A DNA stretch of 64,000 nt from Marinobacterium lutimaris (GTDB taxonomy: Bacteria; Pseudomonadota; Gammaproteobacteria; Pseudomonadales; Balneatricaceae): assembly GCF_900108065.1 (NCBI RefSeq), contig NZ_FNVQ01000002.1, positions 805,883 to 869,882 of the forward strand. The letters run 5' to 3'. Below the pieces are notes generated by a model. It was given only the letters and a program-made list of their open reading frames with translations, had not been told where the DNA came from and searched no databases. Position numbers and translations under genes: made by a program. Positions 6,226 through 41,181 of the stretch are shown here, in pieces. Each line of letters begins with the position of its first letter. The stretch's first letter is position 1.

Positions 6226-6483
6226 TCTGATATTTCCTCTGAACGGGTTAAAACCTCCACATATCCCACCGTCCAACCGCGTCAGCGGCACCCAGGAGCG
6301 GCGTGTCGACATGTGTGTGTTTTGTAATGTGCCAGGGGCACGGGATTTTGGGAGCGCTTTTATACCACAAAGCACCGCCCGATTGAAGCCGCCTTTCTAT
6401 GCGACGGCGTTTTTCGCTACAATTTGGGTTTCTCGCCTACCTGATAATCAGGCCACCCAACTCCACCCAACACCCGGAGCCCT
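6226..6483. promoter_or_regulatory. Divergent rpsB/map promoter region with rpsB leader
   Basis: 258 bp without a gene. On the minus strand a TATAAA -10 candidate lies at 6358-6363 with a poor -35, giving an rpsB leader of about 125 nt. A small GTGCC/GGCAC hairpin lies within that leader. Gammaproteobacterial rpsB leaders (t44 RNA) are S2-autoregulated; I see a plausible position for one but did not confirm the fold. On the plus strand TACAAT at 6418-6423 is a -10 candidate for map. Confidence 0.45.
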
Positions 6484-38064: not shown

Positions 38065-39036
38065 TCAGGCGCGCTCAAAGCTGAACGGAATTACCTCGTC
38101 GATGCGCGCAGCATTCAGCGCCAGCATCGCCAGGCGATCAAACCCCAGCGCCACTCCGGCACAGTCCGGCATCCCCGCTTCCAGCGCGCTGACCAGGCGA
38201 TGTTCCAGAGGACGCTCCGGCAACCCGAGCGCATTGCGTTTCTGCTGATCCAGTTCCAGTCGACGCGCCTGTTCCGGTGCATCGGTCAGTTCCTGGTAGC
38301 CGTTCGCCAGCTCGATTCCGCGGACGAAAAGCTCAAACCGGGTCGCCACCGGCGTGCCGGTTTCATCCTCGACCACCTGCGCCAGCGCCGCCTGGGTCGC
38401 CGGGAAACTGTGCACAAATACCGGCGCCTGCAGACGCGGCTCGATCACTTCGGACATCAGCAGGTTAAGCCAGGTATCCCGATCGTCATCTTCAAACGGC
38501 GCATCCACATGCTGACGGCAAAGCGCAGCCAGCTCGTCCACTGTTGCTACATGAGTATCCACGCCAAGCTCACGCAGGAACAGGTCGCGATAACCGATCC
38601 GCTCTGCCGCAAAACCCGGTATCGCCTCGGTCACCAACGCTTCGACCTCGTCCATCAGCGCCTGTGCATTCCAGCCCGGCCGGTACCACTCCAGCATGGT
38701 GAATTCCGGGTTATGGCGGCTGCCGCTCTCACCGTTACGGAACACCTTGCCAAGCTGATAGATTGCGCCAGCGCCTGCCGACAGCAAACGCTTCATGGCA
38801 TATTCGGGAGAGGTCTGCAGGTAAAGAGACACACCTTCCTGACCCGGCGCGGGCCGGTAGGTGGCTTCGATGGAATCGATAAAGGGATCACTGACGGCGC
38901 AATGTGAAAGCAACTGGGTATCTACTTCCATGACATCGCGCTGGTAGAAAAACTCACGCACAAGGCGTAGCAGTTGGGCACGCGCCCGAAGACGCTCGAT
39001 TGACGCACCGGGGCGCCAGTCTTCAATAGCAATCAT
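38065..39036 (-). CDS. epmA: EF-P lysine lysyltransferase EpmA
   Basis: A LysRS-like enzyme without an anticodon domain that attaches (R)-beta-lysine to Lys34 of EF-P. The 323-residue protein has class II synthetase motif 2 FRNGESGSRHNPEFTMLEWYR near residues 98-118 (in parts FRNGESGSRHN and EFTMLEWY) and motif 3 ALGFDRLAML near 300. The start at 39036 is supported by homology of the N-terminus, but there is no Shine-Dalgarno sequence; the ATG overlaps the stop of a nine-codon upstream ORF. A c-di-GMP-I-like riboswitch lies in the leader. Confidence 0.95.
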   Translation of the reverse strand: MIAIEDWRPGASIERLRARAQLLRLVREFFYQRDVMEVDTQLLSHCAVSDPFIDSIEATYRPAPGQEGVSLYLQTSPEYAMKRLLSAGAGAIYQLGKVFRNGESGSRHNPEFTMLEWYRPGWNAQALMDEVEALVTEAIPGFAAERIGYRDLFLRELGVDTHVATVDELAALCRQHVDAPFEDDDRDTWLNLLMSEVIEPRLQAPVFVHSFPATQAALAQVVEDETGTPVATRFELFVRGIELANGYQELTDAPEQARRLELDQQKRNALGLPERPLEHRLVSALEAGMPDCAGVALGFDRLAMLALNAARIDEVIPFSFERA

Positions 39037-39088: not shown

Positions 39089-39180
39089 GAATCTCTCTTT
39101 CGGTAGCCCGGCGGTCTAATCCGATTAAACCCGTGGCTTTGCGCGCCCGGTAAACCGGGTTTGCCTTTTCGAGAGAGACT
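39089..39180 (-). promoter_or_regulatory. Cyclic di-GMP-I (GEMM-I) riboswitch aptamer upstream of epmA
   Basis: Read on the minus strand: a P1 arm TCTCTCT (about 39178-39172), then AAGGCAAACC (39167-39158), the hairpin CCGG-TTTA-CCGG, then CGCAAAGCCACGGG, a hairpin GGTTTAA...TTAGACC, then GCCGGGCTACCG (about 39113-39102) and the closing P1 arm AGAGAGA (about 39098-39092). The segments GGCAAACC, CGCAAAGCC, ACGGG and GCCGGG-TACCG, in this order and spacing, are the conserved core of GEMM-I aptamers. The GNRA tetraloop of the first hairpin is replaced by TTTA and the GGGACGC segment reads GGCGCGC. G is kept at the G20-equivalent position, favouring c-di-GMP over cGAMP. It ends about 53 nt before the epmA ATG. 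Confidence 0.82.
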
Positions 39181-39355
39181 CGTTCGCTGGAATGCGGAAA
39201 CGATATTTGGGTGACGGGCAGGTTGGGCGACCTGTTCCGTCTATCGATATCCGTAAAGACATGCTAGCAACAAAAAATCGCCGATGCCATCCCCTGCGGA
39301 ACGATTAATCTCTATTCAGCCAGAATCCAGCGCCTCAAGGCTTCTGGATCTAACG

Positions 39356-39378
39356 CCGGCCCCGCTACACGGGGCCGG
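39356..39378. terminator. Hairpin downstream of efp
   Basis: Perfect 8-bp stem CCGGCCCC (39356-39363) and GGGGCCGG (39371-39378), loop of 7, ten bases after the efp stop. No T-tract, so some readthrough from efp into the epmA leader is possible. Confidence 0.6.
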
Positions 39379-39387
39379 TGAGGTCGA

Positions 39388-39951
39388 TCAGGCGCGGCTG
39401 ACGTATTCGCCGGTACGGGTATCGATCTTGAGGGTTTCACCCCGTTCGATGAACAGCGGTACACGCACCATGGCGCCGGTGCTCAGGGTTGCAGGCTTGG
39501 AACCGCCCTGAGCAGTATCACCCTTGAGACCCGGATCGGTTTCAACCACTTCCAGCTCAACGAAGTTCGGCGGAGTCACGGCGATAGGGTTGTCGTTCCA
39601 CAGGGTGACCATGCACTTGTCAGTCTCTTTCAGCCACTTGCCGGCATCGCCAACAGCGTTGGCATCGGCAGCGAACTGTTCGAAGCTGCTCGGCTCCATG
39701 AAGTGCCACATTTCACCGTCGCTGTAGAGGTATTCCATGTCACGATCCATGACATCGGCGCTTTCGACAGATTCGTTGGACTTGAAGGTACGTTCCCAGA
39801 TACGGCCGGTCAGCAGGTTACGCAGGCGCACACGGGTGAATGCCTGACCCTTGCCCGGTTTAACGAAATCAACATCGACCATGGAGCAAGGATCGCCTTC
39901 GATCATCACCTTGAGGCCGTTTTTGAACTGGTTGCTGGAATAAGTTGCCAT
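39388..39951 (-). CDS. efp: Translation elongation factor P
   Basis: Relieves ribosome stalling at polyproline motifs. The 187-residue three-domain protein has the modified loop FVKPGKGQA with Lys34 at the tip, the lysine that EpmA/EpmB beta-lysylate. The C-terminal signature [13 protein letters not shown] is present. epmA lies downstream on the same strand and epmB diverges upstream, so the whole modification pathway is local. Confidence 0.97.
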
Positions 39952-40179
39952 TGGATGGGTCCGCTTTATGTAAGGAAGCCCCGAACGCTCAAAACGCCCC
40001 AGACTTGAAAACTTGCAAACACGCCGGAAAAGCCGGCATAAAAAGTGCGCTAAAGTTTACAGGGGAGGCTCACGGCAAGTCCACTGGCAAGCTTTGATAG
40101 CCTGTGCACTGCTTGATACCGGGATGCCAACTTGGGCAGAATGCCGCTCTGACATCCATCCCCGTTGAAGAACCGATAC
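39952..40179. other. Divergent efp/epmB intergenic region
   Basis: 228 bp. Contains a small hairpin GCCGG-AAAAG-CCGGC at 40023-40037 in the efp leader, and AT-rich sequence around 40038-40060 where an efp promoter may lie (TTGCCG and TAAACT on the minus strand, spacing not ideal). I see no strong consensus promoter for epmB. Confidence 0.4.
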
Positions 40180-41181
40180 ATGACCTCATGCTGGCCCGCC
40201 GCCGATGCCTGGCAACAGTCGTTGCGCAACGTCATTACCGACCCCAATGAACTGCTGGCAAAACTGGCGCTCCCCGTGCACCTCGGCGACACCTCAGCCC
40301 AGGCGCAATTTTCGCTGCGCGTACCCAGAGAATTGGTGGCCCGCATCCACCCCGGGGATGCCCAAGACCCCATTCTGCTGCAGGTGCTGCCACAGCAGCG
40401 TGAAATGACACCGGTAACAGGATTCAGCGCCGACCCGCTGGCGGAGATGGGGTCCAACCCGGTTCCTGGCGTTGTCCATAAGTATCGCGACCGGGTGCTG
40501 CTGATCGGCAGCGGCGGCTGCGCCATCAACTGCCGCTACTGCTTCCGCCGTCACTTTCCCTACCAGGACAACCAACTCAGCGGCGAGCAGTGGCAGCAAG
40601 CACTTGACTACATTGACACTCACCCTGAGCTGGAAGAAGCAATCCTCTCCGGCGGCGATCCGCTGGTGACACCGGACAGCCGCCTGCAGCGCATGATCGC
40701 GGATCTGGCCCAGCGTCCACAGCTGAAGCGACTGCGGGTGCATACGCGCCTGCCGATCGTGATTCCCGACCGGGTGACCGAAGGGCTGGTCAAGGCAATG
40801 ACCGCTACCCGCTTGAAGCCGGTACTGGTGCTGCACTGCAACCACCCTCAGGAAGTCGATGCCAGCGTCCGCGACGCGATTTCGCGACTTATTCAGGCTG
40901 GCATCACCGTACTGAACCAGGCGGTTCTACTGCGAGGAATCAACGAAACTGTCGAAACGCAAAAAGCGCTGAGCGAAACCCTTTTCGACTGCGGAGTGCT
41001 ACCCTACTATCTGTTTGTACTCGACCCGGTGGCAGGCGCTGCGCATTTCGATGTAAGCGATGCTGAAGCGAAGCAACTGCTGGCGGAACTTCAGGCGTGC
41101 CTGCCCGGTTATCTGGTGCCACGATTAGCCCGTGAGATTCCCGGAAAACCGTCAAAAACATTATTAATGCCAGGCCGTTGA
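40180..41181 (+). CDS. epmB: EF-P beta-lysylation protein EpmB (lysine 2,3-aminomutase)
   Basis: Radical SAM, PLP-dependent mutase that makes (R)-beta-lysine for EpmA. The 333-residue product has the CxxxCxxC cluster motif at Cys114, Cys118 and Cys121 (GGCAINCRYCFRRHFPY), and SGGDPLVTPD (SAM-binding GGD). The frame extends to a TTG at 40165, but the ATG at 40180 matches the family N-terminus (WQQSLRNVITDPNELL). Confidence 0.95.
   Translation: MTSCWPAADAWQQSLRNVITDPNELLAKLALPVHLGDTSAQAQFSLRVPRELVARIHPGDAQDPILLQVLPQQREMTPVTGFSADPLAEMGSNPVPGVVHKYRDRVLLIGSGGCAINCRYCFRRHFPYQDNQLSGEQWQQALDYIDTHPELEEAILSGGDPLVTPDSRLQRMIADLAQRPQLKRLRVHTRLPIVIPDRVTEGLVKAMTATRLKPVLVLHCNHPQEVDASVRDAISRLIQAGITVLNQAVLLRGINETVETQKALSETLFDCGVLPYYLFVLDPVAGAAHFDVSDAEAKQLLAELQACLPGYLVPRLAREIPGKPSKTLLMPGR

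Follow-up and report, generated by a model that had tools for sequence, protein, structure and literature searches.

A c-di-GMP-I aptamer beside epmA belongs to a recurring unit that may be a free-standing RNA gene

In the 64,000-nt stretch of Marinobacterium lutimaris DNA analysed here (the window), a c-di-GMP-I aptamer with covarying helices lies directly upstream of epmA, and it is one copy of a unit that recurs in three genera with differing neighbour genes. The unit is made of an extended -10 promoter element, a 5' domain, the segment TCCAGCGA and the aptamer; the genera are designated g1 (the genus of the window), g6 and g16, which are arbitrary labels. As promoter type, fixed segment and aptamer are kept while the neighbour genes change, we consider an independent RNA gene the best reading of the unit. 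We give a probability of about one half to the reading that it is a free-standing c-di-GMP-I RNA gene, resembling merRNA, which in g1 also runs into epmA. Any tie of c-di-GMP to protein synthesis through epmA would be only secondary to such an RNA gene.

The features of the locus are listed in Table 1. The efp gene lies upstream of the aptamer and of epmA on the same strand, and epmA, which starts at 39036, 52 nt past P1, is the next gene after the aptamer. A sense terminator-like site follows efp in three of the four relatives scanned (L035, L036 and L037, none being found in L038); in shuffles of the three positive regions, 0.5–0.9 such sites are expected per region. The second Rfam match in the window is a t44 RNA (RF00127) at 6247-6337 on the (-) strand, with 65 bits.

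Table 1. Features of the efp-epmA region, in window coordinates.
Feature	Coordinates	Strand	Basis
efp, elongation factor P	39388..39951	(-)	TIGR00038, 252.8 bits (cut-off 185.8)
epmA, EF-P--(R)-beta-lysine ligase	38065..39036	(-)	TIGR00462, 376.9 bits (cut-off 286.9)
epmB, other EF-P modification enzyme, divergent	40165..41181	(+)	TIGR03821, 463.3 bits (cut-off 369.3)
GC-rich hairpin directly after efp, without T run	39356..39378	(-)	Sequence
Predicted promoter, ATGGCA (39290-39285), 18 bp, TGC-TAGCAT (-10 at 39266-39261)	39261..39290	(-)	Conserved extended -10
5' domain of the RNA; stem-loop predicted, beginning at the putative start site	39195..39253	(-)	Fold
Linker TTCCAGCGA	39184..39192	(-)	Sequence comparison of unit copies
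c-di-GMP-I aptamer	39099..39175	(-)	RF01051 match
P1, 5' strand GAGTCTCTC	39173..39181	(-)	Alignment and covariation analysis
P1, 3' strand GAGAGATTC	39089..39097	(-)	P1 pairs compared in 15 distinct sequences of two genera
P2 hairpin CCCGG-UUUA-CCGGG	39146..39159	(-)	RF01051 match and covariation
P3 helix, able to pair along its full length; receptor motif not seen	39105..39138	(-)	RF01051 match and covariation
G20-equivalent	39165	(-)	Authors' own placement on the sequence
A47-equivalent	39140	(-)	Authors' own placement on the sequence
C92-equivalent	within 39103-39102	(-)	Authors' own placement on the sequence

The sequence-only reading had recognised a GEMM-I core upstream of epmA and had proposed a search with the corresponding Rfam covariance model. 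That search bears the core out: the full RF01051 (c-di-GMP-I) model matches with 51.2 bits and an E-value of 4.3e-7 for the window, the gathering score being 35 bits. The same reading had described the aptamer as a variant. Docking of a GNRA tetraloop is usual in c-di-GMP-I aptamers, though not universal; in the window copy the P2 loop is UUUA and P3 is able to pair along its entire length, so that neither the GNRA loop nor a P3 receptor is seen. The description thus holds for the window copy but does not define the group, since all ten g16 copies of the unit, read by eye, have a GNRA loop in P2. PMC4744006 names G20, A47 and C92 as ligand-contact residues. By our own mapping, their equivalents in the eight g1 copies are invariant (G, A and the two C residues of the ACCG block). 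The aptamer next to epmA is of the c-di-GMP-I class, and it is predicted to bind c-di-GMP.

All eight g1 genomes have an RF01051 match immediately before epmA and in its orientation, with scores of 42.2–51.2 bits. In these eight distinct sequences standard pairs fill 95.4% of the pair cells, and two-sided changes are seen at 10 of the 31 pairs; none of 500 shuffles equalled either the standard-pair fraction or the number of two-sided changes. With helices that covary and a match at this place in every g1 genome, the observation is not due to chance. Conservation of the aptamer before epmA in related genomes, which the sequence-only reading had named as a check, is found throughout g1. An epmA match was obtained in 112 of 116 genomes of the wider family, and in the 104 of these that are outside g1 no RF01051 match lies near epmA (strict-filter RNA search, positions compared by eye). 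In 20 of the 21 highest-scoring relatives outside g1 (G102 left out), no aptamer was seen near epmA with Rfam at E-values up to 5, nor with R1, a model built from the eight g1 aptamers, run without filters (best score 11.0 bits). The same leader was not found in 80 named epmA loci either (best 16.4 bits, E 0.84); the model recovers the ordinary c-di-GMP-I aptamer in every one of 27 test loci, but three of these score no more than 21–23 bits, so that remote leaders in the 80 loci could be missed.

The spacing of efp and epmA also differs. In 19 of these 20 relatives efp precedes epmA at a distance of -16 to about 213 nt, whereas in g1 262–473 nt separate efp from the start of the aptamer match, with the predicted promoter inside; the distance is more variable among the 80 named loci. 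The wide g1 gap holding the aptamer indicates that the unit was gained there, or lost elsewhere. The nearest named EpmA relatives come from a Marinobacterium sp. (63%), Neptuniibacter caesariensis (61%) and Neptunomonas japonica (58%), in a listing that may omit records very close to the window.

When R1 was run on 390 genomes of the order, matches at E<=1e-8 were found in 10 genomes, all of this family and all in g1, g6 or g16; strict filters were used, so that remote copies could be missed. The unit is present in 8 of 8 g1, 8 of 8 g6 and 10 of 11 g16 genomes. The g6 copies have the same P1 and upstream segment as those of g1 (TTCCAGCGAA; CTCCAGCGAA in G059), while their epmA is elsewhere in the genome. 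The pattern CCAGCGA-GARTCTC precedes the aptamer in the eight g6 genomes; it also matches elsewhere, and none of ten such loci inspected has an aptamer core in the bases displayed. In g16 a third form, CCAGCGAATAGATCC (CCAGCGAAAAAGATCC in one copy), stands before an RF01051 aptamer in the ten positive genomes. In the exception, G022, pattern matches exist but are not beside its two aptamers.

The segment TCCAGCGA is common to all 26 unit copies. The eight g1 copies were chosen without reference to the CCAGCGA motif, while the g6 and g16 copies were selected by it, so that its constancy in the latter is partly due to selection. A loose pattern gave 62 distinct cores in the loci examined, of which 24 have CCAGCGA within 45 nt upstream and 38 do not; one of these 38, in L036, is plainly no aptamer. 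CCAGCGA was not found in the 45 nt upstream of the ordinary c-di-GMP-I leaders of g1. In G006, CCAGCGACGAATCTCCCCC at L198:1501-1519 is nearly the linker plus the 5' P1 strand of the epmA element; this site has no aptamer and no clear long gene across it, and it lies about 2 kb from another c-di-GMP-I match.

The promoter of the unit is predicted from its extended -10. In the form TGnTAnn[AT]T this element is located 58–79 nt before P1 in 8 of 8 g1 copies, and it is found at the corresponding place in all 16 g1 and g6 copies; the looser TGnTAnnnT is present in 26 of 26 copies, starting 45–80 nt before the linker. The six bases 18 bp upstream of the -10 were read off by position and not by search: they are [AG]T[AG][AG]C[AG] in the eight g1 copies and TTGGC[AG] in the eight of g6. 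A strict consensus promoter scan reported a promoter in L037, and none in the window or in L035, L036 and L038. With the predicted promoter upstream of the aptamer, any epmA transcript that starts there should contain the aptamer, and epmA is likely to be transcribed from this putative promoter through the aptamer.

Over the 15 distinct g1 and g6 sequences, seven of the nine P1 pairs are invariant, while two-sided changes occur in all five pairs of P2 and in 9 of the 14 of P3; these counts lean toward structure, as the alignment was fitted to the model. Near-invariance of P1 beside covariation of P2 and P3 indicates that P1 is held in sequence, and not in shape alone, in these two genera; the P1 sequence of g16 is different.

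No target gene is common to the three genera: epmA is beside eight of eight copies in g1, none of eight in g6 and none of ten in g16, and no close sense gene is shared by the g6 or by the g16 copies. Gene contexts were counted from simple ORF calls, and the scan for terminators after the unit covered g1 and g6. Three of the eight g6 genomes (G060, G012 and G058) have a strong hairpin plus T run after the unit, with energies of -31.1, -35.6 and -38.3 kcal/mol, and no strong terminator was found after it in the other five (-3.7 to -9.9 kcal/mol). In three of the g6 genomes (G055, G056 and G057) a convergent gene ends within about 90 nt of the unit; it is of the AcrB family by Pfam in L162, and the others are similar in appearance. 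The next sense ORF is 444 nt from the unit in G054 and 529 nt in G059, an integrase-like ORF begins 888 nt after it in G060, and in G012 and G058 the sense gene of a shared operon lies beyond the terminator-like hairpin. This operon, of the Zn-protease/7TM-transglutaminase-like type (Pfam shown for L165), is downstream on the same strand in four of the eight g6 genomes and starts at +272 to +529 (the start in L166 being estimated). ORFs of 221 and 358 codons overlapping the aptamer in L163 and L166 were taken as chance frames. Upstream neighbours of the g6 unit also vary, and include a protoglobin diguanylate cyclase (L162) and an OprD porin (L164), among others; in two g6 genomes (L162 and L167, with Pfam for L162 only) the unit is divergent from a protoglobin-GGDEF diguanylate cyclase gene. 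For each of the ten g16 copies, 269–514 nt separate the unit from the start of the next sense ORF. An antisense ORF of 86–87 codons, known from ORF calls only, begins within 33 nt of the unit in nine of the ten g16 genomes (L234-L236, L240, L242-L244, L246 and L247).

The g1 genomes also contain ordinary c-di-GMP-I leaders, which have the same aptamer family as the epmA element. Of 26 RF01051 matches in g1, 8 are at epmA and 18 elsewhere; two of the latter are in the genome of the window, before genes for an HDOD-domain protein and for a secreted metalloprotease-like protein. Fourteen of the 18 were examined for P1 competitors (L001, L003, L004, L005, L007, L009, L010, L011, L014, L020, L021, L023, L026 and L031). 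Eight of these precede ORFs that resemble the HDOD protein of L001, and four precede ORFs that resemble the metalloprotease-like protein of L003; L004 and L026 are followed by other ORFs. In all 14, P1 is weak (-6.5 to -10.9 kcal/mol), its 5' side starting with GATCC or similar, and a downstream segment outpairs it for its 5' strand (-10.4 to -19.2 kcal/mol); taken singly, these pairings are matched by 0 to 48 of 200 shuffles. The competitor is the same GGATC-type segment in most of them. This downstream segment, often GAGGATC, is likely to be the switch platform of the ordinary g1 leaders.

In contrast, P1 of the eight epmA copies is strong (-14.4 to -17.6 kcal/mol), and the best downstream competitor for its 5' strand reaches only -5.7 to -11.6 kcal/mol, with 37 to 184 of 200 shuffles as low. 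Competitors located upstream, or for the 3' strand, were not clearly beyond shuffles, the lowest counts being 20 of 300 shuffles for the 3' strand in G005, and 36 of 300 for an upstream competitor of the 5' strand in G006. No downstream competitor as strong as P1 was found in the 18 g6 and g16 copies, and hence in none of the 26 copies of the unit. These searches for a platform used simple folding, by which absence is no proof.

Two other devices were considered as a platform for epmA in the window, masking of a Shine-Dalgarno sequence and an intrinsic terminator ahead of the start codon, and neither was found. There is no good Shine-Dalgarno to mask before epmA in the window: in the eight g1 genomes, anti-SD pairing at -20 to -3 of epmA is between +1.0 and -3.0 kcal/mol, unfavourable in five and weak (-2.2 to -3.0 kcal/mol) in three. 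In six of the eight, the sequence between aptamer and start codon that best matches the anti-SD is AAAGAGAGATTC or AAGGAGAGATTC, which belongs to the P1 3' strand itself. In the window, the stretch from the aptamer to the start codon contains no recognised intrinsic terminator. A terminator-like hairpin followed by a T run was seen within early epmA, at 38969-38955 on the (-) strand; shuffles of that region give 0.5 sites. The best hairpin-plus-T candidates of g1 are inside epmA as well, except in G004, which has a possible terminator before the gene (-25.1 kcal/mol); no convincing one precedes epmA in the other g1 genomes.

The sequence-only reading had proposed that c-di-GMP controls epmA, and through it EF-P modification. 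Adjacency of a c-di-GMP-I aptamer to epmA throughout the genus agrees with this proposal, but no expression platform was found and the unit recurs without epmA. A cis-acting c-di-GMP riboswitch of epmA that lacks a classical platform, the copies in related genera being other leaders or relocated relics, is accordingly a tentative alternative. It might act by hiding the purine-rich P1 3' strand, or through access of Rho or an RNase. It accounts for the element being beside epmA in every g1 genome, for the widened efp-epmA interval and for the position of the best anti-SD match; against it, no downstream segment competes for the 5' P1 strand more strongly than chance allows, no terminator was found before the start codon in the window, and the units of g6 and g16 have no epmA beside them. 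Pairing of the freed 3' strand downstream, with a probability of at least 0.5, is predicted in only three of the eight g1 copies, and near the start codon in two of these. That the element is a relic, presently without function, is the least probable reading: the missing platform and the poor anti-SD pairing before epmA would fit decay, but the helices show compensatory changes, P1 is near-invariant in two genera and the linker is common to three. It is improbable, if slightly less so, that the RNA responds to a different ligand, for example cyclic AMP-GMP. Binders of this molecule (GEMM-Ib) carry A at the G20 position, whereas the G20-equivalent is G, and not A, in all eight g1 epmA copies. 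This argument is weakened by PMC9262584, where G20 is described as contributing to selectivity without being a strict filter; class variants with a changed ligand exist (PMC7266159), and the window copy combines the absence of a tetraloop-receptor contact with a strong P1.

A free-standing RNA gene is favoured by a competitor stronger than P1 in none of the 26 unit copies, as opposed to all 14 ordinary leaders examined, by the extended -10 in 26 of 26 copies and the fixed P1 beside covarying P2 and P3, and by the terminator, convergent gene or long gap before the next sense gene that often follows the g6 and g16 copies. Counted against it, epmA adjoins the element in all eight g1 genomes, which fits control in cis, and a convincing terminator is missing before epmA (save perhaps in G004), as is a strong one in five of the eight g6 genomes; the four g6 copies with the same-strand operon downstream may have a leader role. 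If the unit is a free-standing RNA gene, its RNA would start about 72 nt before P1 in the window (51–72 nt in g1), bind c-di-GMP, and end soon after P1 in at least some related genomes, with a predicted length of roughly 200 nt where a terminator follows. The separate RNA could act by pairing or protein binding via the fixed TCCAGCGA segment, or by holding c-di-GMP. In g1, where no clear terminator precedes epmA, binding of c-di-GMP could also alter the amount of EpmA, in a direction that is not predicted. More specifically, a family of c-di-GMP-sensing RNAs acting in trans via TCCAGCGA, of which the g1 copy before epmA also sets EF-P beta-lysylation, is doubtful. When 12 of the 16 g1 and g6 genomes were searched for the 11-base linker complement as a possible trans target, no recurring site near gene starts was seen: among 49 matches, 30 loci were examined and 7 were the element itself, and besides the element a single locus, in one genome only, has a match 43 nt before a gene start.

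With the Vibrio cholerae c-di-GMP-I (GEMM-I) aptamers Vc1 and Vc2, the epmA element shares the ordered core, the P1-P2-P3 architecture and the contact-residue equivalents. According to PMC4744006, Vc1 acts as an on switch and belongs to a leader whose start is 225 nt upstream of the start codon. Compared with this type, the window copy lacks the GNRA loop and receptor. The unit differs further in its strong P1, almost constant in sequence in two genera, in having no recognised platform, in the fixed TCCAGCGA ahead of the aptamer and in lacking a target gene common to the genera. A precedent for a free-standing RNA of this kind is merRNA of Bdellovibrio bacteriovorus, described in PMC3627812 as an abundant non-coding RNA with a c-di-GMP riboswitch domain and no conserved downstream ORF, for which storage of c-di-GMP is proposed. 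The comparison is one of features; merRNA is 445 nt long and its authors found no conservation outside Bdellovibrio, whereas the unit is predicted to give an RNA of roughly 200 nt, is present in three genera and is followed by epmA in one. No report linking a c-di-GMP riboswitch to EF-P or epmA/poxA was found in the open-licence literature. EF-P of Acinetobacter baumannii was reported to bind c-di-GMP itself (2022 work, cited in the review PMC11139211), and Xanthomonas EF-P was reported to be under the RpfC/RpfG/RpfF system, after transcription (PMC6637768); in view of these findings a link between c-di-GMP and EF-P is not far-fetched.

Riboswitch aptamers are normally taken as switches of the next gene, and here promoter type and upstream segment are kept while the neighbours change. 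Riboswitches in non-coding RNAs are called rarely described (PMC3627812), and a family of them spread over three genera would therefore be a good system in which to learn their role. If the RNA also controls epmA in g1, it would provide a new route from c-di-GMP to polyproline translation, in addition to the reported binding by A. baumannii EF-P.
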